A stretch of 20,988 nt of DNA from a virus: positions 1-20,988 of IMG/VR virus record IMGVR_UViG_3300034200_000820, one strand, 5' to 3'. The notes under the pieces were generated by a model. It made no database searches. It had not been told where the DNA came from and was given only the letters and a program-made list of their open reading frames with translations. Positions 1-20,988 of this stretch are shown one piece after another (positions within the stretch are counted from its first letter, which is position 1; each line of letters starts with the position of its first letter). A program made the position numbers and the translations under genes.

Positions 1-1735
1 AGCAGATGACCGCGCCCGGCGTGGATGTCATACGCATCAGGGGCGAGCCGAATCCTGCCAGAAGGCCAAGCGCATGAAGCTCAAGGCTCGGGATGTTGAA
101 CGCGTTAGCCGACTCCTGCCACTTCTCTAGCGTGCCGGTGGGACGGAAGAGCTTAGACACGTTCTTGACCAACGGCGATGTCGCCGCCGTACGTTCTTCG
201 CCGTCCCGCTGTATCTCCAAGGTGCCCGTTATGAACGCCTCGTGGTTTTCTGTCCAACCCATTTGCATACGTATGATCTCCGCTGACTTGATGTTCTGTA
301 AAAATTCGTTCCACTTACGCAGGTACTCCGAGACAAACTTGGACATCTCGGGTGGGAAGTTGATGCTGTTAGACGACAGTATCTCCTTCATCTTGTCGTA
401 TGCGTATGCATACTTCATCGGGAACAAGAACTCCTTTGTGGGGTCCTTGGGCATGATGTAACGCAGCAGCATGCTCTCGCCATCAGTCGGACTGTGCATC
501 CGCTTGATGGGGAAGAAGTCATTTGCAATCAACTGAAAGGGACGCGGCTGTTCGACGTTCCCCTCTTCGTCTACTTCGGCCTTTGGCTTGTACCAAACTC
601 CTCCGTTGGCTCCTCGTACATAGGGACTGATCGAGACAGGAAATAGCGGAACTTCTTCGGGATTCTCAGCGATCCGAACTGCGTCCTCTTCACTAATCGT
701 CTCGGTTGACGGGGCTTCCTTGAGCTGTCGTCCAAGCTGGATGGGTCCGGACTTGCCGAACTTGCCTTTGAATACGCATCCGTTGCATCCTGCAGGGTTG
801 AGTTCTTCAAACTTGCTGCATCCGTAGGCCCACTCTGCGTTAAGGGTTTCATTAGCCTTAGCCTCTGTTGCTGCCGGGGTGTACCCCGGATGTTTTTGTG
901 ACATCAAATGGATGGCTTCCTTGCCATCCACACAACGCACCGCGACGGACAGCCCTGCCCGCCACAACGGTTCTTCCAACGTGGCCTGATTGGTCACGAT
1001 GTTATTGATTTGGCCACATCCCTGCCCCGTCAAACTCTTGACGACGATATCGTTAAAGACATACTCGAAGTTGTCGGGCTTGGCGGGCAGGTCAGGTTCA
1101 ATCGACGCAAGGATCTCCTCGATAGACGGGGGGATCACGCCCAAGAACTCTTGAATCTGATGAAAGCTGTACTGCCCAAACTCACTGTCAAGCAGCTTCG
1201 TTTCACGCGGCAAGTCGGTCTTGTAGTTCAGGGTCTCGGGGCAGCGAAGGACACGTGCGGCGTCCGCCGTGACCGCCATGTCGATCTTGATGTGGTCGGC
1301 GCAAAACTTCTTGAACTTATCTGCGTACCGCTTCCACTCATCAATCGGGATGTCTTGGTCAAGCAACCAATATGCATGGATGCCGCCGCCCGAATCCACA
1401 CGGACAGGCGGGGCAAACTTAGATATCGTAATGAAGTCATCCAATGCAGCAAGAGCAACCTCTTTGCTGTTGTACTTCTTCGGATTGTCCGGATCCACAT
1501 CAAGGTCGATGAACAAAGACCTTGAGTACAGTGCGTTGTCCGCTTTGCGGCTGAAGTTCTTGAACGTACTCATCGCAACGAATACGTTCTGCTCCTGCGA
1601 CTTCAGCTCATCAACGATCTCTAACAGCTCTTCGAGCGTTTCAGCAAACCGGTTCTGAGCGCGGCCCTCTTTGATGCCGGTTGCACAGTAAACGCCCTGC
1701 GATGGCAATGCCTTTCTGTAAAATTGTTCTAACAT
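1..1735 (-). CDS. Primase-helicase: AEP-type primase with DUF927 region (partial)
   Basis: The reading frame is open from ATG at 1735 to the window edge, giving 578 codons and no stop; the C-terminus lies outside. It probably makes primers and unwinds DNA at the phage fork. The first 200 residues show archaeo-eukaryotic primase signatures: LFIDLDVD (residues 74-81, metal aspartates D77 and D79), SGGGIHAYW (115-123, H120), and a basic RVLRCPETLNYK stretch around 161-172. A cysteine cluster at 306, 317 and 320 may bind zinc. From about residue 455 the sequence resembles DUF927 (MGWTENHEAFITG, then FGSPLM), which in other proteins precedes a helicase ATPase; that ATPase would lie beyond the edge. 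The start has only a weak GAGA-like ribosome site and sits 18 bp past a strong terminator. The primase assignment is from motifs; the helicase part is inferred from DUF927. Confidence 0.85.
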   Translation of the reverse strand, partial: MLEQFYRKALPSQGVYCATGIKEGRAQNRFAETLEELLEIVDELKSQEQNVFVAMSTFKNFSRKADNALYSRSLFIDLDVDPDNPKKYNSKEVALAALDDFITISKFAPPVRVDSGGGIHAYWLLDQDIPIDEWKRYADKFKKFCADHIKIDMAVTADAARVLRCPETLNYKTDLPRETKLLDSEFGQYSFHQIQEFLGVIPPSIEEILASIEPDLPAKPDNFEYVFNDIVVKSLTGQGCGQINNIVTNQATLEEPLWRAGLSVAVRCVDGKEAIHLMSQKHPGYTPAATEAKANETLNAEWAYGCSKFEELNPAGCNGCVFKGKFGKSGPIQLGRQLKEAPSTETISEEDAVRIAENPEEVPLFPVSISPYVRGANGGVWYKPKAEVDEEGNVEQPRPFQLIANDFFPIKRMHSPTDGESMLLRYIMPKDPTKEFLFPMKYAYAYDKMKEILSSNSINFPPEMSKFVSEYLRKWNEFLQNIKSAEIIRMQMGWTENHEAFITGTLEIQRDGEERTAATSPLVKNVSKLFRPTGTLEKWQESANAFNIPSLELHALGLLAGFGSPLMRMTSTPGAVIC

Positions 1736-1753
1736 TTCAAATCTCGCAGAGAC

Positions 1754-1781
1754 AAAAAAGGCGGGGGGCGGACCCCCCGCC
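1754..1781 (-). terminator. Rho-independent terminator after the HTH gene
   Basis: Read on the minus strand, a 9-bp perfect GC stem (GGCGGGGGG with CCCCCCGCC, 1760-1781) closes a TCCG tetraloop and is followed directly by six T (1754-1759). It lies 17 bp after the stop of the HTH gene and 18 bp before the primase start, so it would end the long operon and make primase expression depend on read-through or on a separate signal. Confidence 0.92.
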
Positions 1782-1798
1782 AAATCACAAGACTCAAA

Positions 1799-2110
1799 TC
1801 AAATCTTTACCCCTATCATGCTTTCTATGTACGCCTTGGCGTCGATGACAGTTTGAGCGGGCAAGTAACCTGACTTCATGTCTTGTCGTACTAGATCCAT
1901 GAATACCTCAATGGTCTTACGCTTGCCCTCGCGTATGCCACCCCCTCGGAACCAGTTGTATACGCTGATACGTGAAGTCTCCAACGCTTTAGCAACATAG
2001 GCCGCCGGAAGGTTAGCCTCCACACAGAGTCTGCCAAGCTGCACACCCAACATCGTCGGGTCTGCCTTCTGCAGATTTAGTAGGAATTTTTGACTGTATG
2101 GACGAGCCAC
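1799..2110 (-). CDS. Helix-turn-helix DNA-binding protein
   Basis: A 103-residue protein starting at GTG 2110, with GAGG nine bases upstream. Residues 37-56 (AAYVAKALETSRISVYNWF) read as a helix-turn-helix of the XRE/Cro type: an alanine-rich first helix, a short turn, and a recognition helix ending in the YNWF pattern typical of phage repressors. The rest is charged and helical, with no other domain visible. It is the last gene before the strong terminator at 1754-1781 and just upstream of the primase, a position suited to a regulator of the replication genes. Its targets are unknown; the repeated elements at the operon heads near 15.4, 17.6 and 20.3 kb are candidates. Confidence is high that it binds DNA and low for its specific role. 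Confidence 0.8.
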   Translation of the reverse strand: MARPYSQKFLLNLQKADPTMLGVQLGRLCVEANLPAAYVAKALETSRISVYNWFRGGGIREGKRKTIEVFMDLVRQDMKSGYLPAQTVIDAKAYIESMIGVKI

Positions 2111-3386: not shown

Positions 3387-4968
3387 AAGCTTCATCCAAC
3401 TCCTGTTTGTACAGATCAACTAGTTTTTGATGGTTATCGACTTTGCCCTGAAGCATCCGGTACATCTTCCGTTCTACTTCCGAGCCTTGCAAATGCACGA
3501 CGGTCATGTTGTTCTTCTGTCCAACACGGTCGATGCGTGCGATGCACTGCAGGTACGTCTCTACACTCATTACGGGGGACCAAAAGACTACCGTGTCCGC
3601 TGCCGTCAGCGTGATGCCGTGTGCAGCCGATTGCGGTTGAACAACCAAGACGCGGGGGGACTCTTGTGTCTGGAACCGGTCGATGATCTGCGACCGTTCA
3701 CGAGCGGAGACTGAACCTTGTATGACTTCACAACTGATATGCTCACTGTTTAGGAACTTGGTAACTACACCGATAGTGTGCAGGTACGACACGAATACTA
3801 CAACCTTGTTTAACGTTTCGTCTAGTGCTTCCTTCAAGGCATTCAGCCGAGGGGATACGTCGAGCTCCAAGGTCTGCCCGCCGTCCGTGTACACGGCACC
3901 GCCGCTGATCTGAAGCAGCTTGTTGAGGGCAGAGGCTGCATTGACCGCGCTGATCTGCTCGCCTGCGGTCTCGATCAATAGCTGTGATTTCAAATGCTTA
4001 TAGAGCGCCTGCACCTGTGGCGTGAGGGCAACGTCACGTGTCTGATATACGACAGGCGGCAGGTCAAGGCAGTCTTTTTTGGTGTAGCGGATGGCAGGCT
4101 GCAGCGCCTCATGCACAACTTCCTGTGCTCGTAGTCTAGGGAGCCAACGAAACCGGCTAGCCTGATACATCACGCGGTCCCGCCATGCGCCCGTGAATTT
4201 TGGGACCCGCTGCGGGCTGACCAATTTAGCTAGTCCAAACGCATCCACAGGGGACTGCGCCGCAGGGGTGCCGGTCATCATCCACAGCCGGGTGCTCGGT
4301 TGAAGCAGCTTGGCTAGCGTTTTCCAACGCTTGGTCGTTGCAGACTTGTATGCGTTGGCCTCGTCCACGATGATCAAGTCGAACTTGCCGTGCAGTTCGT
4401 TTGCAACCGTGCTCACGCCATCGAAGTTGATGGCGACAAAATCGTAGTCGTTGTTGATCACCTTGACGCGCTTCGACACGGAGCCGTGAGCGATACCGCA
4501 CGTTCTATGCATCGCAGTTTTGAAGATGTCGTCCTGCCAAGCCGAGTACATGATCGACAAAGGGCAGATGACAAGCACACGCTTGATAAGGCCGATCTCC
4601 ATCAAGTAATCCGCAGCCCAAATGGCGGCAGAAGTCTTGCCTGTGCCTGCCTCGTTAAAGCAGAACGCCCGTTGCCTGAGCGACAGGAACGACGCCGTAT
4701 CTCGTTGGTGCTCGAAAGGCTTGTGTATACCGGGCCACGTGTAGTCACGCAGCATCGGAGATGGCACGCTAGGTACGTCTAACTTCGGACCCTCTGCATC
4801 GAGGAACGCCGCGAGCGTTGCCGCTTCGTTATACCCCCAGTACAGTAGGATGTCTTTCCAATCGCCGCGACTTTCGACGAGCTGACTCTTCTCAACTACG
4901 CCAAGCGTCATATCGGCCACCCTTGCGGGGAGCATGGCACGAATCGCTGTGTTGTCTATCACTTGCAT
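3379..4968 (-). CDS. SNF2-type superfamily 2 DNA helicase/translocase
   Basis: This 529-residue protein has a complete set of SF2/SNF2 motifs: a Q-like FEHQRD (85-90), Walker A NEAGTGKT (105-112), motif II DEAN (202-205), motif III TGTP (232-235), and in the second lobe VVVFVSY, QPQSAAHGITLTAAD and the arginine-finger motif QCIARIDRVGQ (474-484). The length is normal for small phage SNF2-like helicases, which lack extra targeting domains. It probably moves on duplex DNA using ATP, helping replication, recombination or removal of bound proteins. It starts at ATG 4968 after a 171-bp structured gap and overlaps the next gene by 8 bp. The second acid of the DEAx box is present, so it should be catalytically active. 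The family call is secure; the cellular substrate is not. Confidence 0.93.
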   Translation of the reverse strand: MQVIDNTAIRAMLPARVADMTLGVVEKSQLVESRGDWKDILLYWGYNEAATLAAFLDAEGPKLDVPSVPSPMLRDYTWPGIHKPFEHQRDTASFLSLRQRAFCFNEAGTGKTSAAIWAADYLMEIGLIKRVLVICPLSIMYSAWQDDIFKTAMHRTCGIAHGSVSKRVKVINNDYDFVAINFDGVSTVANELHGKFDLIIVDEANAYKSATTKRWKTLAKLLQPSTRLWMMTGTPAAQSPVDAFGLAKLVSPQRVPKFTGAWRDRVMYQASRFRWLPRLRAQEVVHEALQPAIRYTKKDCLDLPPVVYQTRDVALTPQVQALYKHLKSQLLIETAGEQISAVNAASALNKLLQISGGAVYTDGGQTLELDVSPRLNALKEALDETLNKVVVFVSYLHTIGVVTKFLNSEHISCEVIQGSVSARERSQIIDRFQTQESPRVLVVQPQSAAHGITLTAADTVVFWSPVMSVETYLQCIARIDRVGQKNNMTVVHLQGSEVERKMYRMLQGKVDNHQKLVDLYKQELDEAYE

Positions 4969-5139
4969 AACTGGTTCTCACTATGTAAGGCCCGTCTCGT
5001 GGGCTAGACGGCGTAGGCTCAGCCGGAGAAAACGAGGTGTTTAGGCCGCCCTACGCTGACATGGTTAGTGCTTCTATCATTCAGCACGGGGAGGAGGTAA
5101 AAGCCCCCTATCCTGTACACTCATGCCTTGTACGGATCA
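4969..5139 (-). other. Structured 171-bp intergenic leader upstream of the helicase
   Basis: This is the largest gap inside the long operon, where most other junctions overlap. It contains several dyads on the transcribed strand: a 6-bp stem CCGTCT/AGACGG (4992-5011), a 7-bp long-range stem GCGTAGG/CCTACGC (5011-5056), a 5-bp stem GTGCT/AGCAC near 5070-5090, and AGGGGG/CCTCCT near 5095-5115. None is followed by a T tract, so they are not ordinary terminators. The only ORF I see is 15 codons and not convincing. It may be a regulatory leader or RNA processing site. Confidence 0.45.
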
Positions 5140-5796
5140 TCATCTTTCCTTGTAAAACTCGCAGCTGTTTACCGGGCACCATCCGCAGAGCGGCGTAGCC
5201 CGAGCAGGCCAAGAGTCATTGATGAACGACAGCTCAAGCCGCTTCAGTGTCGGAGCAAATGCTTGCCACAGTTTCGGGATGTCCTCTCGTTCATACTCTT
5301 CAGACACGAATGAATTGTGTGCGACGAACAGCAGCCCCGCCTTAATGTGCTCTACTTCGGGGAAGTGCATGAACGTCATCAACCCCATCAGCTTCAACTG
5401 CTTCGGGTCCGGGTACCGGTTGCTCCCGGTCTTGTAGTCCACGATATATGCCTGCGTGCCGTCAACCACAAGCAAGTCCACGATGCCCCGAACCCAATAG
5501 TCCGGCGCGTCAAACTCACACGGCACCTTCTCTGCAGTCAGCGCCATCTTGTATTCAGGGTACTGAGTGCCCGGCGTCTCGCGCAGCACGTCAAGCATAG
5601 GCTTGAACCGTTCGTAGTTCTTCGCAAGCGGCGTGCCGTCCTTGACGTAATCCTCGCAAGCTTTGTGGACAGCCGTGCCGTACAGCATCTGCTCCGTAAC
5701 TTTCTTCACAAAGTTCCGCCGGATCTTGACTTCATAGTACTGCCTAGGGCAGTTGTCAAAGTCTTTAAGACCACTGAATGACCACTTGATCGTCAT
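5140..5796 (-). CDS. Cas4/RecB-like PD-(D/E)XK exonuclease with Fe-S cysteines
   Basis: A 218-residue nuclease whose ATG (5796) overlaps the upstream stop as ATGA. It has the layout of Cas4/AddB-type nucleases: CPRQYY at the N-terminus (C16), GTAVH with H44, GIVD with D107, VDYKTG with D120 and K122, and a following QL helix (Q133). Three more cysteines at the C-terminus (C204, C207, C212 in CGWCPVNSC) complete a four-cysteine set expected to hold a [4Fe-4S] cluster. All catalytic positions are present, so it should be active. It probably degrades or trims DNA ends during replication-recombination or host genome breakdown. It lies directly after another PD-(D/E)XK protein. There are no cas1 or cas2 genes or CRISPR arrays here, so a CRISPR role is unlikely. 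Confidence 0.9.
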   Translation of the reverse strand: MTIKWSFSGLKDFDNCPRQYYEVKIRRNFVKKVTEQMLYGTAVHKACEDYVKDGTPLAKNYERFKPMLDVLRETPGTQYPEYKMALTAEKVPCEFDAPDYWVRGIVDLLVVDGTQAYIVDYKTGSNRYPDPKQLKLMGLMTFMHFPEVEHIKAGLLFVAHNSFVSEEYEREDIPKLWQAFAPTLKRLELSFINDSWPARATPLCGWCPVNSCEFYKER

Positions 5797-6221
5797 AGTT
5801 TTACCTCTGTGAACTCGCTGATAGGTATGTGCATCACCGGCTCGAAGTCACCGTTCTGCCCGCGAGAGTTGCCTCCCATATGCAGATCAAGCGGTAACTG
5901 CACAGGATACTTGACCTTGTGATACCACAATCCGTCCGGCCACTCCACGATGAGAAAGCAAGGCAAGCCCGTAGTGCGGTTCAGCTCTAGTAGTTGGATG
6001 TACTTCGCCGCCGCGATCAACAGCGGGTCGATCTTCTTGCTGCGGCGTTTGAATTCTGCGAATGCTTTGGGCTTCCCGTCACGATAGAACACCCAATCAA
6101 CCCGATACAATGTCGGAGACAGCTTGCAGACTTGCGTATCCCACGCTTGGCACAGCCGCTCGGCAGCCGATTGCTCAGCTGCTAAGTCTTCCGGCGTCTC
6201 GTTCATCGGGCGAAATCCCAT
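5793..6221 (-). CDS. Small PD-(D/E)XK nuclease-like protein
   Basis: A 142-residue protein. The pattern RVDWVFYRDG followed by AFAEFKRR gives D42, E56 and K58, the spacing of a minimal PD-(D/E)XK core with E-x-K in place of D-x-K. A following helix (SKKIDPLLIAAAKYIQLLEL) and a final beta-rich part fit a small restriction-like fold of Holliday-junction resolvase size. ATG 6221 overlaps the DNA polymerase stop by one base (TGATG); an internal ATG at 6206 is a possible alternative. Its neighbours are the polymerase and a Cas4-like exonuclease, which argues for a role in processing replication or recombination intermediates. The substrate is unknown. The nuclease fold is a motif call by eye. Confidence 0.78.
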   Translation of the reverse strand: MGFRPMNETPEDLAAEQSAAERLCQAWDTQVCKLSPTLYRVDWVFYRDGKPKAFAEFKRRSKKIDPLLIAAAKYIQLLELNRTTGLPCFLIVEWPDGLWYHKVKYPVQLPLDLHMGGNSRGQNGDFEPVMHIPISEFTEVKL

Positions 6222-8074
6222 CAGCAGTCCCCGTACGATCTACCATACTTCGCTTCGCACGCTACAGGCAGGCCCGGTGCCCACTCAGGAGGTGAAGACA
6301 TGACCCCGATCATCAACTTCATCGCTTGTTCCAACTCGTCCTGCGGGGTTACAACCACAGCCGCGTCATGCACGGTCAGTACCGGACGCAGCCCTTGCTT
6401 CGCCAACTCTATCATTTGTTGACCGACAATGATCCGGGCAAGTGCTTGCACTACGTTCTCAACAACTGCGCCGCCCCACAGGGACTGAACCCCCTTACGC
6501 GAGGTGTAGATAAAGCCCTTCTCGCCCCGCTGCAGTTTTGGATACTTGATGTACAGACCATTCGGTAGACGGAGACCGTTCGGTGTGACCCATACAGCCT
6601 CATGCTGTCCCAAGGAGTATTCACGGGTACCCGGTGGCCACGACATCAGGTGGTTAAGTGCTAACTCACACTCGCGCCACAGCTCAGGGACCTTGTCGTT
6701 CTCCTGCCGGTAAAGATCGACAATGCGTTTGCATTCGTCCTCGCTCAGGTCAGCGCCGGGGGGCTGAGTCTTGAGGGTATGCTGCAGCTTCTTCGCCCCG
6801 GTGCCGTATCCGAGGCTGAGCGTTGCGACTTTTCCGATATGGCGCTGAACCGGGTGCGCTTTAGAAACTTCAAAGCCAAACACCTTGCTTGCAAAGATCG
6901 AGTACACATCCTCGCCGTTGGCGAACTGCTTGACCACATCATCCTGTCCGGCAAGCCACGCCAAGACACGCGCCTCAATCTGGCTGCTGTCGCAGTTGAT
7001 GATGTAGTGCCCCGGCGGTGCAAGCAGCGCGTTCTTGAGCGCCTTCTTGTTCTTGTCCCGGCTCGGCAGGTTCTGAAGGTTCACGGAGTCCTGCCCTGAC
7101 CAACGGCCTGTGTGTGCCCCGTAATACTTTAGCGGGATGGGCAGTCGCCCCCGGTTTCGTGACCCGATGCCGATGAACCGCTCGATACGCGACTCCTCGA
7201 TGGTGGACTTGGTGCCAAGCCTCACCGCGCATAGTTGCTGCACGATGGGATCTTCATGTTCTTGGAGAGCGATGAACGCCTCGTCGTTCTTGGCAAGAGC
7301 AAACGTCTCCTTGCCTGTCGTCGGGCTTACCTTCTTGGGCGGGGTGATACCGTGCCGCTCAAGTTCAGCGGCGAACTGAGGGTTGCTTGCCAGACATGCC
7401 CGGACTTCCTCAACGGTCGTGACCTTCATCGCGTCCATCAGGCCACTGAGTAATTCCTTCTTCTGCGCCCTGACCTGCTCCAGTCGGTCAACCAAGAGAG
7501 CATCGTCCACGTGGAGTATGGGTTGGGTATACATCCGCAGCGTCATGTCGATCAGCTTAAGTTCATCGTTCGGGAAGTAGCCCGACAACAGGGAGCCAAA
7601 CAACTTGAAGGTAAGGTCTACGTCATTGATACAGTAACGCCCGTAGGCTGCGAGTTGTTCAGGAGTGAAGTCTGCCTGTCGCTTGCCCAAAGCATCGACC
7701 ACCTCGGTACCCTTCACGCCTAGGTTGTACCGCCCAGCCAAAGCCTTGAGTGAGCCACCTGCATCAACGCCATGAATCGCCCGTGCCATGCACAGCGTGT
7801 CGTAATACATCGCCGGAACAATCCCGTACTTCCACGCAAGGATCGCGCCATCGAACATCATGTTGTGACAGAGAAGGGCTGAGTTGCCCCAGTCAAGCAT
7901 GGCGAGTTCGTCTGCGATGTTCTCCGTGACCCACTTGGTCGGGTTGTCATCGACCTTGATGCCAACACCAATCACCTCAAAGCGCGGGTCGTTCAGGTAC
8001 TCCTCGTTGGTCTGAGTACGAAACCCAAGGTCGTTGGCATAGTACGTCTCGAAATCAAGCGTGATAAAACTCAT
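6221..8074 (-). CDS. Family A DNA polymerase with 3'-5' exonuclease domain
   Basis: A 617-residue replicative polymerase. ATG 8074 is chosen over a start 42 bp upstream because it overlaps the preceding stop as ATGA and has AGAGG nine bases upstream. The N-terminus is a DEDDy exonuclease: DFET (D7, E9), CHNMMFD (D75), and Y147 with D151 in YCIND. The polymerase domain shows motif A CDSSQIEAR (D362), motif B RHIGKVATLSLGYG (R411, K415, Y423), and motif C TVHDA (H569, D570). There is no 5'-nuclease domain, as in T7-like enzymes. Two points stand out. The residue equivalent to E. coli Pol I Phe762 is leucine (L419), and the usual acid after motif C aspartate is alanine (A571). Both catalytic aspartates remain, so activity is expected. 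It replicates the phage genome together with the helicase and primase in this cluster. Confidence 0.96.
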   Translation of the reverse strand: MSFITLDFETYYANDLGFRTQTNEEYLNDPRFEVIGVGIKVDDNPTKWVTENIADELAMLDWGNSALLCHNMMFDGAILAWKYGIVPAMYYDTLCMARAIHGVDAGGSLKALAGRYNLGVKGTEVVDALGKRQADFTPEQLAAYGRYCINDVDLTFKLFGSLLSGYFPNDELKLIDMTLRMYTQPILHVDDALLVDRLEQVRAQKKELLSGLMDAMKVTTVEEVRACLASNPQFAAELERHGITPPKKVSPTTGKETFALAKNDEAFIALQEHEDPIVQQLCAVRLGTKSTIEESRIERFIGIGSRNRGRLPIPLKYYGAHTGRWSGQDSVNLQNLPSRDKNKKALKNALLAPPGHYIINCDSSQIEARVLAWLAGQDDVVKQFANGEDVYSIFASKVFGFEVSKAHPVQRHIGKVATLSLGYGTGAKKLQHTLKTQPPGADLSEDECKRIVDLYRQENDKVPELWRECELALNHLMSWPPGTREYSLGQHEAVWVTPNGLRLPNGLYIKYPKLQRGEKGFIYTSRKGVQSLWGGAVVENVVQALARIIVGQQMIELAKQGLRPVLTVHDAAVVVTPQDELEQAMKLMIGVMSSPPEWAPGLPVACEAKYGRSYGDC

Positions 8075-10858: not shown

Positions 10859-11114
10859 GTTCCACCTCCTTCTTCACTTGTTCGCGGACAAGCACGAGCA
10901 GCTTACACAGTACATGCGTCTGCGGTTTGTCTTTACCTGCACGCAAGAGCGAGTCGAACTCAGTCGCGTACATATCAACGATGTCCCACCGCAGCACCTC
11001 CAACTGACCATCGTCACCGATCTTGGCCCACACCGTCTCGGGGTTCGCTATAACCTTTGTATGTTCCTGCGGGATGATGAGATACGCATCATCGTCATCT
11101 TTGATCTCACTCAT
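10836..11114 (-). CDS. Hypothetical acidic protein
   Basis: A 92-residue protein starting at ATG 11114, overlapping the glycosyltransferase stop by 8 bases (TATGAGTGA). The N-terminus is strongly acidic (SEIKDDDDAYLI). The centre looks like alternating strands (KVIANPETVWAKIGDDGQLEVLRWDIV), and the C-terminus is helical and basic (CKLLVLVREQVKKEVEHGY). Its 3' end overlaps the next gene by 23 bp, across that gene's ribosome site. I do not recognise the family. The operon position and coupled overlaps support it as a real gene. Confidence 0.72.
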   Translation of the reverse strand: MSEIKDDDDAYLIIPQEHTKVIANPETVWAKIGDDGQLEVLRWDIVDMYATEFDSLLRAGKDKPQTHVLCKLLVLVREQVKKEVEHGYRSKE

Positions 11115-11784
11115 AGGTCACCTCTTTGGCTACGTTCATCCACTCTTTACCGTATTCAACTTCAGTCCAGTCCTTGAACCACGGTCCACCTCGCGTGAAG
11201 TGCACCGCTTGCGGGTTCGGGCAGTCATCCTTGGTGTGCCACCCTTCCAAATAGTTATATGCAACCGGCAACTCACCGATGCATGCGTCCCACAAGAACC
11301 TGAACTGATGTAAGTACATACCGGACTCACGGTTCACGACCTCGGGGGTCAGCGCCTTCACGTGCAGGTGCTCACAGTTCCACAGAATCATGCTCGACCA
11401 ATTCTTGCGCGGATACTGGTGCTGAAACTTGCCATCCATCTTGGTGGCTTCTTTCGGCTTGTAGTCATGCTTGACTACAACTGCACCATAGTACGGGTTC
11501 ATGTAGTCCTGCAGCGCAGCGACATCACCTCGCCACAAGAAGTCGCAGTCCATGAACACCGCCCACCCTTTGTACCCTGCAAGATGCGGCACCAAGAAGC
11601 GTGTGAAGGAGAACTCCGTGGACGAAAGCGGGTCATGCTCACGCCAGTACAAGTTCTTCTCACGCATCTCCTGCTGCTTGATGGGTTGGATGTCGAGCGG
11701 CACAGACGTGTGCTTCTCCAACGACCGCTTGCATACTTGATACGCGATGTCCTCGCGGCTATCCCAACCGATAAAGATTTTCAT
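11107..11784 (-). CDS. GT-A fold glycosyltransferase (GT8-like)
   Basis: A 225-residue protein. ATG 11784 is taken rather than the GTG one codon earlier because it makes a TGATG junction with the fusion glycosyltransferase and has GAGGTG upstream. It begins with a strand (MKIFIGWDSRE) typical of nucleotide-sugar binding. FMDCDFLWRGD gives the DxD metal motif (D79, D81), and near the end AVHFTRGGPWF supplies the usual C-terminal metal-binding histidine. It has the size of a single catalytic domain and no membrane segment. The donor and acceptor sugars cannot be told. It follows directly after a gene with two more glycosyltransferase domains, so the enzymes may build one glycan in sequence, on host lipopolysaccharide or on a phage product such as modified DNA. 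Confidence 0.86.
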   Translation of the reverse strand: MKIFIGWDSREDIAYQVCKRSLEKHTSVPLDIQPIKQQEMREKNLYWREHDPLSSTEFSFTRFLVPHLAGYKGWAVFMDCDFLWRGDVAALQDYMNPYYGAVVVKHDYKPKEATKMDGKFQHQYPRKNWSSMILWNCEHLHVKALTPEVVNRESGMYLHQFRFLWDACIGELPVAYNYLEGWHTKDDCPNPQAVHFTRGGPWFKDWTEVEYGKEWMNVAKEVTYE

Positions 11785-13652
11785 CACGACACCTCAAACA
11801 ACTGCTTACGCGCTGCGCCCTTGTAGTGCAGTATCTTCGCATCGTCGGTCTTGTGCTCGGGCAGACATCCGTAGATGGACTCAGGGAACGTCGCCACTTC
11901 GTTCGACTCAGCGTAGACACGCAGAGCCTCTTGGTCGCCGTACCACTTGCGGTACTTCGGGTCGAGCGTATCGTAAACAGCTAACAAGTCCTCCCAGAAC
12001 TTCGGGCCATCAGTCACCAAAGCACAGAAGACATACGGATACACTTGATCCATCGTCTTTCCCTTGTGCTCGTCAAAGACCAACCCGCGCAACTCTGTGT
12101 TGAACCCGCCGTCACAGTTGAACGACCTACGACAAACGGCAACCTCGGCATCGGCAAGCATCATCGCGGGGTCTATCTCGCCCTGCACAAGCATGTCCGT
12201 GTCCAAGAATATCGCCGGACCTTCCATCGCCAATCTAGCGTAAGCCTTGATCCGACCGTGGATTAGCTCGTCCCGGTCTATCTCAATCTCAAACCTGTCC
12301 GACACCCCCATGACATCCGGTGTATCTGTATCTGTACACATGACGATGTACGCGTTGGGGTTGTATCGCAGGACAGACTTGACCATCTTCTGCGGATGAG
12401 AGATGTCATCACCCACATGGAAGAACACAACGACCGGCGGGTCTAGGTAGCCTCGACGGTGCATCACATACTCTAGTGCCTCCTTGACCTGCTTCAACTG
12501 CAAGTCCCACGGCGCGTTCATGTTCTCGCGCTGATATATCCGTACGCCGGGGTACCACAAACTCTGATTACCCGCACGGTTGTTCCAATACCACAGTTTG
12601 TTGGCATCAAGCAGCAAGACCTCCTTGCCCATCGCCCCTGCCAGATGCACCGTGGCGCAAGATGGCGAGATGATGACGTTACATATCTCCATGAGCGCAG
12701 CGACGTTCTCCAAGTCAAAGAACGTGTCGATATGTGTGGTGATGAGGCTCGGGTGAAAGTCCCGCCCTTCCTCTTGCGCCTGACCGTACTGCAGGTTGAT
12801 GAACTTAACCCCCGGCTCATCGAGGATGTGCTTGAAGTCAGCCAAGGGGACAGACTTGTGTGGCCCGATGACAGGAGCGGTGCTCGTCCAAGACAGTCCA
12901 ACAACGACATCGTCTTCTTTTAACCCGTACTCTTTACGCAACCTCGCCACGCGCTCAGGGTCGGCCTTGACGTAGGAATGCCCCCATGTGTAAGTCGAGA
13001 TATCCCCGACTGAGTTAATGAAGTATTTACCCAGTGAGGCTATGGGGATGTGCGAGTCATGCTCGGACATCTTTACACGAGAGTTGTGCGTCAAGAACTT
13101 GACGTTGTCGGCTTTGCACCCCCGCTGCAACAGGTTCGTCAGGCGCAGGTCTACCATGACCGTGACCTCATCCACTTCCTTGGCAAGAGCCTCGATGAGC
13201 GATGCATAGAGCAGTTGATCCCCGATGCCTTGTTCACACCAGATGAGCGGTCGCTTCAAGCCCTTGCCACGCTCCCACTGCGGGTGCTTGGTGTGCAGCT
13301 TCGGAGACTTGAACGTCTTGCTCTGCCACCGCCGCTCGTAGCCCTGCCAACCCTTCTTGAAGTCACCCATCTGCAGCGAGAGCAGACCCATCGTCCACGC
13401 CGCATCTGCATTGTTCGGCTCAAGGTTGACGGCGATCTCAAAGTGCTGCCGTGCCGACTGCCAACGGTGCATCTCCCAGTGGCAACGACCGATCTGTAAC
13501 TCAGCCGCTGTAAGAACTGGAAGTACATTGTGGATGTTACTAAGCAGCCCGATGGCCTCGTCATACCGACCTGTGTTGGCGGCATCGAGTCCTCGCTTGT
13601 AGATGTCCTGAGCGAACTCAGGCAGCGTGCGTTGTTTCGTTTCTTCGCTCAC
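11784..13652 (-). CDS. Three-domain glycosyltransferase: TPR, GT-B and GT-A fused
   Basis: A 622-residue protein. GTG 13652 is chosen because it overlaps the stop of the small upstream gene as GTGA and has a G-rich ribosome site; a TTG 45 bp upstream is less likely. Residues 10-110 hold helical TPR-like repeats (YKRGLDAANTGRYDEAIGLL; WTMGLLSLQMGDFKKGWQGY). Residues 134-400 resemble a GT-B domain of the heptosyltransferase/GT41 kind (PLIWCEQGIGDQLLYASL; ISPSCATVHLAGAMGKEVLLL). Residues 405-622 form a separate GT-A domain with DTD (484-486), GDQEALRVYAE and a terminal HYKG (H609) as in GT8 enzymes. TPR plus GT-B is known in bacterial and phage enzymes; the added GT-A domain makes it a likely bifunctional enzyme adding two sugars. 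The target may be a host surface glycan or phage DNA. Domain calls are by eye. Confidence 0.85.
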   Translation of the reverse strand: MSEETKQRTLPEFAQDIYKRGLDAANTGRYDEAIGLLSNIHNVLPVLTAAELQIGRCHWEMHRWQSARQHFEIAVNLEPNNADAAWTMGLLSLQMGDFKKGWQGYERRWQSKTFKSPKLHTKHPQWERGKGLKRPLIWCEQGIGDQLLYASLIEALAKEVDEVTVMVDLRLTNLLQRGCKADNVKFLTHNSRVKMSEHDSHIPIASLGKYFINSVGDISTYTWGHSYVKADPERVARLRKEYGLKEDDVVVGLSWTSTAPVIGPHKSVPLADFKHILDEPGVKFINLQYGQAQEEGRDFHPSLITTHIDTFFDLENVAALMEICNVIISPSCATVHLAGAMGKEVLLLDANKLWYWNNRAGNQSLWYPGVRIYQRENMNAPWDLQLKQVKEALEYVMHRRGYLDPPVVVFFHVGDDISHPQKMVKSVLRYNPNAYIVMCTDTDTPDVMGVSDRFEIEIDRDELIHGRIKAYARLAMEGPAIFLDTDMLVQGEIDPAMMLADAEVAVCRRSFNCDGGFNTELRGLVFDEHKGKTMDQVYPYVFCALVTDGPKFWEDLLAVYDTLDPKYRKWYGDQEALRVYAESNEVATFPESIYGCLPEHKTDDAKILHYKGAARKQLFEVS

Positions 13653-13777
13653 CAGTAGTTCCCCCCTCGTCCGATACTGCCCCGACTGCACCGCCAATTA
13701 GGTGGCGGCACCCGGCTCCATGCGTAGTGAGCCTCGTACTCACGACGCTTCCACCAGTTGATCAATGCACGGATCAT
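13649..13777 (-). CDS. Small 42-residue basic protein
   Basis: This short gene fills what looks like a gap between the methyltransferase and the fusion glycosyltransferase. It starts at ATG 13777, overlapping the methyltransferase stop as ATGA, with a perfect AGGAGG four bases before the start. It stops at 13649, overlapping the next GTG start as GTGA. The protein is basic and tryptophan-rich (LINWWKRREYEAHYAWSRVP, then PPNW and a Gly/Arg/Ser tail). It has no known domain. Two exact overlaps and a perfect ribosome site make it convincing; it may simply couple translation of the two enzymes. Confidence 0.72.
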   Translation of the reverse strand: MIRALINWWKRREYEAHYAWSRVPPPNWRCSRGSIGRGGNYW

Positions 13778-14430
13778 ACGGCCTCCTGTGCTACGACTTG
13801 TAGCAGGGACAACGGGATGGACATAGCAGTCTTCCCGCCATGATGGCGCGGATAGATGAGCACACGCCCCGGTGACTCCAACATCATCGCGTTGGCGACA
13901 CCCTTCTCTATACCCTCAAAGTCATCAAGCACAAAGACCGTGTGCGGAGCCAAGATTTTGTTGAGCGGCTCTTCATCCTGCTGACTCAAGCGACCGTCGA
14001 GATAGACCAGATCAGCCTTCAATCCTTCCTCTGCCATGTCAGCAAACATTTCATGAGAAGGTGTGTGAAAATACTGCTCAATCAGTTTGGCTTGTTCTGG
14101 ATACAGAGCAAGATCAATCCTATTTGATACGTCACACGTGCGAATCTGCGCGGTAGTTCCTGTCGCCAAATCCATCACCAAAGTAGATACACCAATGAAT
14201 GTACCTACCTCGGCAATGACCTCGGGCTTGAAGAACTTGACTATCTTGTACAAGTCCCCCGCATCGTTCTCACCCAACGACCCTGTGTTGTAGTCGGCCT
14301 GTTCCCTGAGATGTTGCTGCTTCTGTACGATGTCTTGGATTTTGCTCCAATCCATCTCGACCTTCTCGTCGATGATTTGCCAGACTATCTCGCTCAAGCG
14401 ACGGCGACTTAACTGGATGGGGCGTATCAT
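13774..14430 (-). CDS. Class I SAM-dependent methyltransferase
   Basis: A 218-residue enzyme. ATG 14430 overlaps the preceding stop as ATGA, so the frame's longer start is not used. It has a Rossmann SAM site: motif I IAEVGTFIGVS (E74, G76, G80), an acidic residue ending strand 2 (TCD, D100), LVYLDGRLS (D145), and VFVLDDFEG (D169, D170), the layout of small-molecule or sugar O-methyltransferases (Methyltransf_24 or TylF-like). There is no target-recognition domain of the kind DNA methyltransferases carry and no DPPY or PCQ motif, so DNA base methylation is unlikely. It lies two genes before the glycosyltransferases and may methylate the sugar they transfer. The fold is confident; the substrate is inferred from neighbours. 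Confidence 0.83.
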   Translation of the reverse strand: MIRPIQLSRRRLSEIVWQIIDEKVEMDWSKIQDIVQKQQHLREQADYNTGSLGENDAGDLYKIVKFFKPEVIAEVGTFIGVSTLVMDLATGTTAQIRTCDVSNRIDLALYPEQAKLIEQYFHTPSHEMFADMAEEGLKADLVYLDGRLSQQDEEPLNKILAPHTVFVLDDFEGIEKGVANAMMLESPGRVLIYPRHHGGKTAMSIPLSLLQVVAQEAV

Positions 14431-14849
14431 GCGCCCTTCCTCGCGTCGATCTCGCGCTTCAAGTACCACGCAGCCTTCTCCAAGTCCTGCACGGGATCGG
14501 AGTCCTTCTTACCTGCGCGGCTGATGTACTTCACGACATTGCCCAAGCGGTAGTTCAAATCTTTGGACTCGATGAAGTCGATGGTCTCGATGCCACCGGC
14601 CTTGTAGTGCTCGGGGTGATTCACGAGGTCGGTCTTGGGACGGTCGAACAGCGCGATGATTTCATCGTCGGTCAGCAACGCTTCTCTCTTCAACTCGGTC
14701 GGCTTCGCCTTCTTAGGCGTGCCCGTCTTCTTCGCGTCCTTCCAACGCACCGTGTAGACACGGTTCTTGCTGATGCCAAGTTGCTTGGCGATGTACTCGG
14801 GACTCGCGCCGTTTGCCAAAAAACGGCGAATCTTTGCACTGATAGTCAT
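14427..14849 (-). CDS. HTH protein fused to DUF3310
   Basis: A 140-residue, two-part protein starting at ATG 14849 with an ATGA overlap to the VRR-NUC gene. Residues 1-36 form a helix-turn-helix (NGASPEYIAKQLGISKNRVY). A basic linker (KKTGTPKKAKPTELKRE) leads to residues 76-135, a clear DUF3310 domain: VNHPEHYKAGGIETIDFIE, GNVVKYISRAGKK, DLEKAAWYLKREI. DUF3310 is the conserved core of phage proteins related to T7 gp1.7, described as a nucleotide kinase, so this half may act in nucleotide metabolism. The HTH half could tie that activity to DNA or to regulation. The domain identification is strong; joint function is inferred. Confidence 0.88.
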   Translation of the reverse strand: MTISAKIRRFLANGASPEYIAKQLGISKNRVYTVRWKDAKKTGTPKKAKPTELKREALLTDDEIIALFDRPKTDLVNHPEHYKAGGIETIDFIESKDLNYRLGNVVKYISRAGKKDSDPVQDLEKAAWYLKREIDARKGA

Positions 14850-17685: not shown

Positions 17686-17702
17686 GGCGGAGCGGTCGCA
17701 CC
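17686..17702. repeat. 17-bp direct repeat, copy 1 (GGCGGAGCGGTCGCACC)
   Basis: This is identical to 17802-17818. It borders the AT tract on its left and runs into the 20-bp repeats on its right. It contains a TCGCAC iteron core. Confidence 0.9.
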
Positions 17703-17706
17703 CGCT

Positions 17707-17772
17707 AAGTCCGCTCGCACTCCGTCAAGTCCGCTCGCACCCCGTCAAGTCCGCTCGCACCCCGTCAAGTCC
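17707..17772. repeat. 20-bp tandem repeat, 3.3 copies (iteron-like)
   Basis: The unit is AAGTCCGCTCGCACCCCGTC. Copies lie at 17707-17726 (one mismatch), 17727-17746 and 17747-17766, with a partial copy at 17767-17772. Degenerate copies of the TCGCAC core continue on both sides. A 20-bp period (about two helical turns) puts each copy on the same face of the DNA, as for iterons and repressor arrays. Confidence 0.93.
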
Positions 17773-18156: not shown

Positions 18157-18777
18157 TTAGTTAAAATACCGCGACGCAAGGCCGCGCCCGAATTCGCGGA
18201 GAAAATACCGCGACGCAAGGCCGCGCCCGAATTCGCGGAGAAAGTACCGCCGGAGCCAATCGCCGCCCGAAAACCCATTATATTTTTGTTCGATTGACAC
18301 GATATTGGGCAAGTAATCGTGCGCCGCTATGGTCGCAGCTTCGATAGTGCTGTAAGACTTTTTCCCGGCGACGATATAGGCGGTGGGCGGCATGCAGTAA
18401 TCCCGCACATAATCCCATAAGGCACTAGCCGCGACTGCGGCGACGGCGCGGCGGTACTCCGTCGGGTAATACTGCCCGGTTGTGTAGTGGATGCGTACCT
18501 TGCCGTCGTCTAGCGTTTGAATGTTCAGCCGACCGGAAAAAGCCCACCTCGCAGCGTCCAACAGATTGCGCCCCGTGATGCCGTGCGCCCTTTCGATCGA
18601 ATGTAGCAGCGTACGGGCATCCTGCAAGTCTCGCGTTATGCCGCGCATCTCCGCACGGTACGCTACCGGGTCGCCGTAATTGCCGTACTCTAGGCCGGGG
18701 CGCGACCGGATGAAGGCGTGCAGAGCTTCGAGGATGTTAGTTTTGAGGAGGTCGGGGGTGCCGTATGTCGTGTCCAT
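18157..18777 (-). CDS. Hypothetical protein with duplicated C-terminal tail
   Basis: A 206-residue protein starting at ATG 18777 behind the repeated leader with CGGAG. The N-terminal two-thirds is helical (LLKTNILEALHAFIRSRPG; AEMRGITRDLQDARTLLHSI), and the middle has a strand pair (KVRIHYTTGQYYPTEYRRAV). The C-terminus ends in two exact copies of a 13-residue unit (RYFLREFGRGLAS), encoded by a perfect 39-bp tandem repeat, so the last part of the protein was recently doubled. Without the extra copy the protein would be about 193 residues. The function is not recognised. The tail is basic and amphipathic, and doubling could be harmless or could affect binding. Confidence 0.78.
   Translation of the reverse strand: MDTTYGTPDLLKTNILEALHAFIRSRPGLEYGNYGDPVAYRAEMRGITRDLQDARTLLHSIERAHGITGRNLLDAARWAFSGRLNIQTLDDGKVRIHYTTGQYYPTEYRRAVAAVAASALWDYVRDYCMPPTAYIVAGKKSYSTIEAATIAAHDYLPNIVSIEQKYNGFSGGDWLRRYFLREFGRGLASRYFLREFGRGLASRYFN
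18164..18241. repeat. Perfect 39-bp tandem duplication in a CDS
   Basis: Two identical 39-bp units, 18164-18202 and 18203-18241, with the start of a third diverged copy after them. The unit is 13 codons, so the frame is kept. The identity is perfect, which points to a recent event, or to an assembly artefact. Confidence 0.95.
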
Positions 18778-18801: not shown

Positions 18802-19287
18802 TTAGCAGGGGAAAAACTTGCCGTCTTCGGTAAAGGCGTACTCGTTTATTTCGATACTCTCATCTACCGCCTCATCCGATAATTGCCACTCCATGTCGTC
18901 GCGCCAAGCTTTAAACGCGGCATAGATAGCAGCATCAAACGCGGCGCACGGGTCGCTAGTGCGTTTCCATTCATCATAAAAAGTAGTGTATAGCGTAGCG
19001 TCAAGGTAATAACCGGTCGGCATTGCGTTCCGGTCTAACTCCGAAAGCTTCAACCCGCGAAACAATGCCGGGGGCGCGTGTAGTGTGTAGTCAATCGGGC
19101 AATACGCGCCAATGCTCCATTCCTTCAAGATTGCGCCGAATTGGTCGCAAAAATGCACGAGGGATTGCTGCGATTCACGCGACCTCCATGTGTAATCCGC
19201 CCCGTCGCGGTACCAATCCCGCGCCCGTTGCTTTGCCGCGTCCGACAATTCCGAAAAGGCGTAGACCTGAATTTCGATCGTTCTCAT
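18802..19287 (-). CDS. Conserved phage/plasmid protein (ELSDAAKQRARDWYRDG family)
   Basis: A 161-residue protein. ATG 19287 is chosen because it directly follows the conserved leader with CGGAG; the much longer open frame upstream (to 19563) runs through two hairpins and into the neighbouring gene. The N-terminus (RTIEIQVYAFSELSDAAKQR, then ARDWYRDG) is the mark of a family widespread on phages, plasmids and islands, sometimes labelled antitoxin-like without proof. The middle holds a beta-rich part (YYLDATLYTTFYDEW), and the end is acidic. The function is unknown. Confidence 0.83.
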   Translation of the reverse strand: MRTIEIQVYAFSELSDAAKQRARDWYRDGADYTWRSRESQQSLVHFCDQFGAILKEWSIGAYCPIDYTLHAPPALFRGLKLSELDRNAMPTGYYLDATLYTTFYDEWKRTSDPCAAFDAAIYAAFKAWRDDMEWQLSDEAVDESIEINEYAFTEDGKFFPC

Positions 19288-19688: not shown

Positions 19689-20065
19689 CCTGCAAGACGC
19701 GACCGACCCAATTTTAGCCGGGCGGCGGTTAGTGCCTGTTCCGCCTTTTCAAGCGCGGCTTCCGCATCGTCCAATTCCTCATAGTCGGCGGTTTCCCATT
19801 CAGTCCAGTACGAATCGCCGTCGCCGTCCCGGTATATTTTCTGCCACTCGTCGGGGGTGTAGTGCTTATGCAGACACGCGTCGGAGCAGTAATACTCACA
19901 TCCGCTGTCGACGCAGTAGCCCTCCGACATGGTCGAGCAACACTCGTCGCAGATGCGCTGCGGCTCATCTAACAGGTCTAGGATGGTCTCGTACCGGTGC
20001 ATGGCATCGTCGCGCCCACGCTGCGCCGCCTTGAATGCCGCTTCCGTTTTGCTGAGGTTGTCCAC
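19679..20065 (-). CDS. Cysteine-rich zinc-finger protein
   Basis: A 128-residue protein starting at GTG 20065. Residues 38-66 hold seven cysteines and two histidines: ICDECCSTMSEGYCVDSGCE then YYCSDACLHKHYT, consistent with one or two zinc sites like those in small phage and plasmid zinc fingers. An N-terminal helix (LSKTEAAFKAAQRGRDDAMH) and a C-terminal charged helix (DAEAALEKAEQALTAARLKL) flank it, the latter a likely coiled coil. The region between is acidic (DGDGDSYWTEWETADYEELD). No enzymatic motif is seen. It probably mediates protein or nucleic acid contacts. Confidence 0.8.
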   Translation of the reverse strand: MDNLSKTEAAFKAAQRGRDDAMHRYETILDLLDEPQRICDECCSTMSEGYCVDSGCEYYCSDACLHKHYTPDEWQKIYRDGDGDSYWTEWETADYEELDDAEAALEKAEQALTAARLKLGRSRLAGEG

Positions 20066-20078
20066 GGTTCAGCCCTCC
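20061..20078 (-). repeat. Repeated gene junction, copy 2
   Basis: This is identical over 18 bp to 19671-19688. It carries the TGA stop of the gene ending at 20069 and the GTG start at 20065. Confidence 0.88.
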
Positions 20079-20272
20079 ACGGCGACGAGTGCGCCGTTGA
20101 TGTTGACGATGTGACCCCACAATCCAAGCCGCCCGATGGCCTGTTCAATGTGCTCTTGACTGCGACGGGACGCGGCACGGTGAAGATTGGCTAACATCCG
20201 GGCGGCCATTGCAGGATTGAGGTGGGCGACGGCTTCGGCGCGGGTCGCTTCGCGGGTCTCGTTTCGGTTCAT
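20069..20272 (-). CDS. Small helical protein, first gene of the right-hand operon
   Basis: A 67-residue protein. ATG 20272 is chosen because it follows the repeated CGGAG leader; a longer frame starting at 20341 lacks such a site and would run through the promoter-like element. The sequence is helical and rich in Ala and Arg (NRNETREATRAEAVAHLNPA; MAARMLANLHRAASRRSQEH) and ends in a strand (GLWGHIVNINGALVAVEG). A DNA-binding or regulatory role would fit, but no domain is recognised. Confidence 0.75.
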   Translation of the reverse strand: MNRNETREATRAEAVAHLNPAMAARMLANLHRAASRRSQEHIEQAIGRLGLWGHIVNINGALVAVEG

Positions 20273-20292
20273 GTTCGTTTGCTCCGGTGTAG
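20270..20292 (-). promoter_or_regulatory. Repeated translation leader, copy 3
   Basis: This matches the copies at 18775-18797 and 19285-19307 at 21 of 23 positions, ending in the ATG at 20272. Only the A/C positions of the shared core differ. Confidence 0.83.
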
Positions 20293-20308
20293 GGGAAGGA
20301 ATCGACCT

Positions 20309-20330
20309 AGTAAGTATACATACCTTTACA
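20309..20330 (-). promoter_or_regulatory. Promoter-like element of the right-hand operon
   Basis: On the minus strand TGTAAAG, 8 bases, ACTTACT, the same arrangement as at 17594-17615. TATACT overlaps the second block and could be a -10, but no good -35 is found. It precedes the operon starting at 20272 by about 37 bp. Confidence 0.5.
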
Positions 20331-20384
20331 GAAGGGAACACAAGTTTTTCCGGTGCCGTAGAGCTACGCGGGGCGGGGTGCGGC

Positions 20385-20799
20385 TTGTGTCAGGCCGGTG
20401 TCCCGTTTGTGTCAGGGGGTCGGAAACGCTGACACAAAAAAAGTCTAATAAAAACAAGGGGTTACGGAAAGTTTGTGTCAGGTTTTGTGTGGGGAAAGTT
20501 TACATATGACACGGGATTTTAGGGGGTGGGGGGCGTGTAAGTTATTGATTTTTATTAGATAGTTATAGAATAAGTATATAGAAAAAAGAGAAAAAAAGAG
20601 CAAAACGGGAAAACGGACGGGCGGCAAATGTTTTAGATTGATTTTTTGCACTTGCCGCGCCCCTGCCTTGCTCCCCATTTTTGCACCACATTTCCCGCGC
20701 CCTGTTCCGTTTTTCCTGACACAGTGACACAAACCGGGTTTTTGCTTTGTAAATCAAGTACTTGCGTGTCCCGGCCAAAGAAATACGCTGACACAAGGC
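20385..20799. repeat. Dispersed iteron-like motif TTTGTGTCAGG / CCTGACACAAA
   Basis: Sites with the core TGTGTCA or TGACACA lie at 20385-20394, 20406-20416, 20429-20438 (inverted), 20472-20482, 20715-20723 and 20724-20734 (both inverted) and 20788-20799 (inverted), with weaker copies at 20484 and 20505. Left of the AT tract most point right; right of it all point left. The TGACA core resembles that of many plasmid iterons. Confidence 0.85.
20536..20604. other. AT-rich tract between the iteron-like sites
   Basis: About 69 bp of very AT-rich DNA (TAAGTTATTGATTTTTATT at its start, then an A/G-rich run) in otherwise GC-rich surroundings. This is the type of easily melted segment expected as a DNA unwinding element. 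Confidence 0.6.
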
Positions 20800-20806
20800 C
20801 GGGACA
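20767..20806. repeat. 10-bp perfect inverted repeat with an iteron in the loop
   Basis: TGTCCCGGCC (20767-20776) and GGCCGGGACA (20797-20806) are perfect inverted copies 20 bases apart. The loop carries one CTGACACAA motif. It could form a cruciform or be a dimer-binding site. Confidence 0.85.
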
Positions 20807-20847
20807 AGGTCGGAACAGGGGTGGAATCGATCGAAACCGCGCCCCGC

Positions 20848-20942
20848 CTGACCCGCTACGCCTTGCCTGACCCGCTACGCCTTGCCTGACCCGCTACGCC
20901 TTGCCTGACCCGCTACGCCTTGCCTGACCCGCTACGCCTTGC
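20848..20942. repeat. 19-bp tandem repeat, five perfect copies
   Basis: The unit CTGACCCGCTACGCCTTGC is repeated five times without a mismatch (20848-20866, 20867-20885, 20886-20904, 20905-20923, 20924-20942). It is GC-rich, with no gene over it. Short spacer-free units exclude a CRISPR array. Confidence 0.97.
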
Positions 20943-20988
20943 CGCATCCCGTCGCACCCTACCCCGCATTGCCGCGCCCGTTGCCCGG

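Follow-up and report, generated by a model that had tools for sequence, protein, structure and literature searches.

Inward-facing iteron arms around an AT-rich tract form a probable replication origin in a tailed-phage genome, with a primase-helicase as its likely reader

The stretch of DNA analyzed here (the window) is an entire IMG/VR virus record of 20,988 bp, a linear and incomplete phage fragment. All of its identified genes read leftward, and the contig represents the replication side of a phage genome. These genes encode an SSB-like protein, a SNF2 helicase, two PD-(D/E)XK nucleases, a family A DNA polymerase, and, at the left end, a primase-helicase whose gene is cut by the contig end and continues beyond it; the full-length protein of a relative (L012:15992-18865) has 958 amino acids. 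At the other end of the contig, next to the first leftward early open reading frame (ORF), which is 87 to 90% identical in the related contigs G006 and G009, lies a cluster of short repeats around an AT-rich tract. The distance from the proposed initiator gene to this cluster is about 18.6 kb, both in the window and in G006. The features are as follows.

2-1783, minus strand: proposed initiator gene, AEP primase - DUF927/MCM-like helicase - winged helix (first 594 codons)
1799-2110, minus strand: 103-aa HTH-like protein, same operon as the primase, disfavored as iteron reader
20069-20272, minus strand: first leftward early ORF, adjoining the putative origin (ATG at 20272)
20384-20394, plus strand: iteron 1, CTTGTGTCAGG
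20406-20416, plus strand: iteron 2, TTTGTGTCAGG, exact
20428-20438, minus strand: iteron 3, TTTGTGTCAGC, outward pointing (aligned copy in G054, TTTGTTCCAG)
20472-20482, plus strand: iteron 4, TTTGTGTCAGG, exact (aligned copy in G054, TTTGTTCCAGC)
20484-20494, plus strand: weak iteron, TTTGTGTGGGG
20538-20550, minus strand: IHF-consensus site WATCAANNNNTTR (AATCAATAACTTA) at the left edge of the AT tract
20538-20615: AT-rich tract, plus strand purine-rich at its right end, candidate DNA unwinding element
20715-20725, minus strand: iteron 5, ACTGTGTCAGG
20723-20733, minus strand: iteron 6, TTTGTGTCACT
20752-20764, plus strand: second IHF-consensus site (AATCAAGTACTTG) in the right arm, inverted relative to the first
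20787-20797, minus strand: iteron 7, CTTGTGTCAGC
20846-20943: 19-bp tandem array, GCCTGACCCGCTACGCCTT, 5.2 units, between the core and the terminase side, outside the conserved core

An earlier note on this DNA had described about eight motif sites that point mostly inward toward an AT-rich tract in a region with no genes, and all of these points were borne out. At up to two mismatches, TTTGTGTCAGG occurs at 10 places in the contig, of which 8 fall within 20384-20797, so the motif is not common elsewhere in the contig, as the note had expected of an origin. In the left arm four sites point right and one, at 20428, points left; all three sites of the right arm point left. The site at 20428 is thus the sole exception among eight, and the two arms together span 414 bp around the AT tract. 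All six contig copies of the exact word TTGTGTCA are in the region (0.96 were expected contig-wide, and six were reached in 0 of 100 shuffles). The top two-strand 7-mer cluster of the contig is formed by TGTGTCA, with 7 of 7 copies in the region and a score of 37.0; the maximum among 120 first-order Markov sequences was 24.7. The most AT-rich 60-mer of the contig begins at 20538 (51 of 60 positions, with 41 of 60 for the next best elsewhere), and the AT content of the tract is 72 to 90% in all cores examined. None of the ORFs overlapping the core was accepted as a gene, since the same frames of close relatives are interrupted by in-frame stops. The range given in the note, 20342-20988, contains the core but also takes in the 19-bp array, which is not part of it.

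GC-rich tandem arrays separate the origin core from the terminase genes in several relatives, and their unit differs each time (19-bp GCCTGACCCGCTACGCCTT in the window at 20846-20943, 9-bp CCTGACCCG in G009, and CGCAGTGGCG-like in Pseudomonas phage Rollin). In relatives they are located at L090 5381-5714 and around 987-1120 of L160, the Rollin record. Contigs stop or contain runs of N at these arrays. In the window's lineage, the first bases of the array unit resemble the 3' half of the iteron (CCTGAC).

A scan with the window's DNA polymerase gathered 80 relatives. In all that are long enough, the leftward block is followed by the noncoding region and then by rightward TerS, TerL, and portal genes; for the window's own repeat type, the terminase side is visible in contig G009. 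This gene order places the feature at the divergent junction between a leftward replication operon and a rightward terminase operon. A matching layout occurs at the same junction in about 20 related contigs and in the isolated phage Rollin, with arms that likewise face mainly inward around an AT-rich tract. Cluster scores are generally low, mostly below 20, in contigs that do not reach the region. Synteny in about 20 relatives therefore supports the proposal of the note that a replication origin heads a leftward early region.

The repeat words of the relatives include TGTTCCAG, TGTACGG, TTGGAATT, AGTTCACA, and TATGCAA. The window's own repeats are also present in three contigs (G006, G009, and G033), which align across the core. 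TTTGTTCCA(G) repeats are found in G005, G008, G010, G014, G020, G022, G030, and G054, TTTGTACGG repeats in G032, TTGGAATTT repeats in G025 and G026, AGTTCACA repeats in G028 and G056, AAGTTCC-like words in G023, G034, G036, and G059, and still other words in G060 and G063-G067. When the window is aligned with G054, the same two bases distinguish each pair of matching iterons (TGTGTCA versus TGTTCCA), and flanks such as AAAAAAAGTCTAATAAAA are conserved. As judged from these alignments, the iteron sequence has changed in concert between lineages. In most lineages the IHF consensus WATCAANNNNTTR is constant, marking the left edge of the AT tract and recurring in the right arm, with about 0.05 expected. 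Two copies are present in G000, G005, G006, G009, G030, and G033, and several other contigs have a single copy; the cores of G022, G025, and G026 lack it. Constant sites for a host protein together with changing sites for a phage protein are the pattern that an origin would be predicted to show.

One further contig, G070, has a few TGTGTCA sites but a different layout, a point against the main reading. Another group of phages, which shares with the window only the protein encoded at 18805-19287, has a repeat cluster of its own (ACCCAATGG; L121 5542-6053 and L122 335-873) that is possibly another origin of the same kind. A nucleotide search of the region against phage records returned zero matches.

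Rollin (OR577172) resembles the window in genome layout, in origin layout, and in the IHF-consensus element, and it encodes a homologous primase-helicase (24% identity over 86%); its iteron sequence, however, is unrelated to that of the window. TATGCAA repeats are located at 260, 282, 304, and 617 on the plus strand and at 528, 537, 546, and 673 on the minus strand, in a stretch that is free of annotated genes and precedes the late genes. One of only two IHF-consensus sites genome-wide, at 324, adjoins the left arm, and a 105-aa ORF is found where relatives have the HTH gene. The Rollin record carries no origin annotation, and a literature search on the phage name returned no paper. In and beside the putative Rollin origin are near-perfect palindromes, AAAAGGTAG-N-TTACTACCTTTT, at 1-25, 46-70, 393-417, and 473-497, which were not seen in other relatives. 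Matches to the DNA polymerase also pointed to KPP25, phiR18, and Rhizobium phages. The primase search was negative in KPP25, and neither KPP25 nor RHph_TM3_14A has a comparable two-arm cluster. In the latter, a Rhizobium phage, the product of L162 27240-30323 is annotated as a "putative integrase" and matches the N-terminal 300 residues of the primase-helicase; this annotation may be wrong.

Gene identities were compared between phages that share iterons and phages that do not. G006 and G033, which have the same iterons, are 96% identical in primase, 98% in HTH, 97% in snf2, 91% in polymerase, and 80% in VRR nuclease. G006 has different iterons from G005 and G032, and in both comparisons the primase falls to 45% identity while the polymerase stays at 90 to 91%. 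These identities indicate that the repeat type is co-inherited with the exo-snf2-ssb-HTH-primase block, about 15 to 18 kb away, and not with the polymerase gene. Plain physical linkage fails as an explanation, because the polymerase gene sits between the origin and the block. A link also exists between iteron type and terS, but it is uninformative since terS is close to the iterons.

Within the block, the primase-helicase is likely to be the iteron reader, a view based on co-inheritance and predicted fold: its gene encodes a primase fused to a helicase like those of Cch and SaPI Rep, with a C-terminal winged helix. The L012 protein matches DUF927 (PF06048; E, 5e-18), and its match to the Pfam Cch HTH is weak (E, 0.056). 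An AlphaFold2 model of the full protein has a mean pLDDT of 83. A PDB sequence search with the primase gave only weak, irrelevant matches, and the fold search succeeded: model residues 379-949 align with SCCmec Cch (5dgk; Z, 30.4 over 480 residues), the model matches SaPIbov1 Rep (8tch; Z, 26.2), and residues 14-215 match the primase (AEP) domain of cyanophage S-2L PrimPol (6zp9; Z, 18.8). The winged helix follows the helicase, at residues 840-941 in the secondary structure of the model, and the Cch alignment extends to residue 949. DUF927 was found in 16 of the 17 searched records, the exception being G009, a contig that ends before the gene. In SaPI Reps and SCCmec Cch2, iterons are read by the C-terminal domain (PMC7581432), and origin recognition has been proposed for primase-DUF927-winged-helix fusions of mobile elements (PMC5862659).

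Iteron word and winged-helix sequence, as far as the sequences compared indicate, are not in strict one-to-one step. TGTTCCA is common to distant lineages whose primase C termini are 26 to 38% identical, and G034 and G056 differ in iterons with winged helices that differ at only two residues. We therefore dropped the primase C terminus as a perfect separator of iteron types. At wing-strand position 920, a K is present in seven TGTTCCA phages and an R in two TGTGTCA phages; other lineages give no clear support for a specificity residue here, and we make no claim for it.

Alternatively, the iterons might be read by the 103-aa HTH protein or another protein of the block, which would recruit the primase-helicase to the origin. 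The HTH gene lies directly upstream of the primase gene in the operon, shares the inheritance of the block, and occurs in every primase-bearing relative (as the 105-aa ORF in Rollin). However, the HTH proteins of G034 and G056 are identical (103 of 103 residues) despite different iterons, and HTH identity is slightly lower for a pair that shares its iteron (G005 and G008, 72%) than for a pair that does not (G006 and G010, 73%). The 103-aa protein matches HTH models weakly (E, 0.04), and the primase-helicase already has a winged helix positioned as in Cch and SaPI Rep. We consider this alternative unlikely. The note had named the primase or an HTH protein as possible initiators; the former is favored by these results, with its Cch/SaPI-Rep-like helicase and winged helix, and the latter disfavored.

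The note had also considered that the region might be a packaging end rather than an internal site. The repeats would then belong to a cos or pac site and be read by the small terminase subunit, TerS. The region is indeed the closest large noncoding stretch upstream of terS, the first gene of the rightward operon; TerS diverges more than TerL between lineages; and cosB of lambda likewise contains IHF sites and repeated terminase sites. However, TerS does not follow repeat type. G056 and G028 share AGTTCAC with 80% TerS identity, G034 and G056 differ in iteron with 88%, and G010 and G020 share TGTTCCA with only 46%. Of the 58 TerS columns that are invariant in seven TGTTCCA phages, none is changed in the TGTGTCA phage. 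The distance from core to terS ranges from about 0.6 to over 2 kb, repeat type tracks the primase block about 15 to 18 kb away, and inward-facing arms around the most AT-rich tract are not characteristic of cos sites. No overlap was found between the contig ends. A packaging site is thus a very improbable reading of the region.

Even less probable is an operator, in which the repeats would regulate divergent early and late promoters. Its location between two divergent operons would suit such a role, but a scan of 19900-20988 for sigma-70-like promoters gave 0 (0.4 expected), two inward arms over 414 bp around an AT-rich tract would be unusual, and co-inheritance with the replication block favors replication. 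A turn of the GC skew in or close to the region is seen in 16 of 16 contigs, as the note had anticipated for an origin; this counts for little because the gene strand switches at the same place.

Taken together, these results make it very likely that the region is a replication origin. The best overall explanation, which we regard as probable on the basis of sequence comparison and the structural model, is that 20384-20797 is the origin of a tailed phage, that the primase-helicase reads it, and that it works in a manner similar to SaPI/SCC replicons. We infer that the C-terminal winged helix of the phage protein would read the iterons, host IHF would bend the core, and the AT tract would melt. 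Each arm would assemble one helicase ring, and the attached primase domain would start synthesis for the phage family A DNA polymerase. The two forks would leave in opposite directions, each codirectional with the transcription of one operon.

Like the SaPI replicon, in which a DUF927/MCM-like self-loading initiator helicase has an iteron-reading C-terminal domain (SaPIbov1 Rep; PMC7581432), the phage has a helicase of this kind, and as in SaPI/SCC-type replicons the origin has multiple iterons (8 sites at 20384-20797, with relatives alike). The phage system departs from that replicon in combining primase and helicase in one polypeptide, in being carried by a phage genome instead of a satellite, in having IHF-consensus sites, and in an origin about 18.6 kb from the helicase gene, whereas the SaPI origin is just downstream of it. 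SCCmec Cch is the nearest solved fold to the phage model (5dgk; Z, 30.4), winged helix included, and the C-terminal domain of Cch2 binds iterons; however, Cch has no primase domain, the hosts differ, and the putative SCC origin consists of three AAGTG direct repeats beside the gene. The phage system thus appears, from the model and these comparisons, to work like a SaPI/SCC self-loading helicase replicon, yet we did not file it as a member because its origin is not next to the helicase gene. The alpha protein of P4, a satellite phage with a different kind of primase and a different repeat sequence, also binds iterons. As in the phage protein, helicase and primase are fused in a single P4 initiator (PMC7145576).

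The note had proposed an origin of the Rep_3 type. Rep_3-type plasmids such as R6K, pSC101, and F do share iterons, an AT-rich unwinding element, and, in some, IHF (PMC4980987), but their iterons are direct repeats of 17 to 22 bp, whereas the sites here are 11 bp long and lie in two converging arms. We found no match to Rep_3 (PF01051) in 17 records, which include near-complete relatives of 54 to 61 kb and the whole Rollin record, and no DnaA box at up to one mismatch in the window core. The Rep_3 assignment is therefore not supported. Nor did the same 17 records contain a match to ParA (PF13614) or integrase (PF00589), the window itself being a fragment; controls were positive in the searches for all three proteins. 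With no Rep_3, integrase, or ParA match, the further suggestion of a phage-plasmid or temperate phage is unsupported, and the phage is apparently lytic.

More tentatively, and with somewhat less confidence than doubt, we suggest that these phages carry an undescribed and widespread type of replicon. In it, a self-loading MCM-like helicase with a fused AEP primase would fire an origin whose two inward iteron arms load a pair of rings head to head on either side of an AT tract; host IHF sites would be held constant, and iterons and initiator would change together. If this is true, otherwise similar phages would have incompatible origin types that recombine as linked modules. The SaPI/SCC type of self-loading helicase replicon, known from Gram-positive mobile islands, would extend to a group of apparently lytic phages in which one protein carries both primase and helicase. 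Replication origins are unknown for most uncultivated phages, and here comparative sequence predicts both an origin and its initiator. This single phage group supplies at least eight natural iteron words, including that of an isolated Pseudomonas aeruginosa phage, and this variety makes initiator specificity directly testable by origin swaps.

Several other features of these genomes were recorded. Inside the replication block of the window, 11107-14469 encodes a long TPR/glycosyltransferase-like protein, a second glycosyltransferase-like protein, and a methyltransferase-like protein (named from their translations only). Tandem repeats are found at 17696-17772 (20-bp unit, 3.9 copies) and 18163-18250 (39-bp unit, 2.3 copies). 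In L028, a close relative (91% identity), the DNA polymerase match at 4823-7528 covers 2.7 kb instead of 1.9 kb, and the gene is likely interrupted by an intein or intron.
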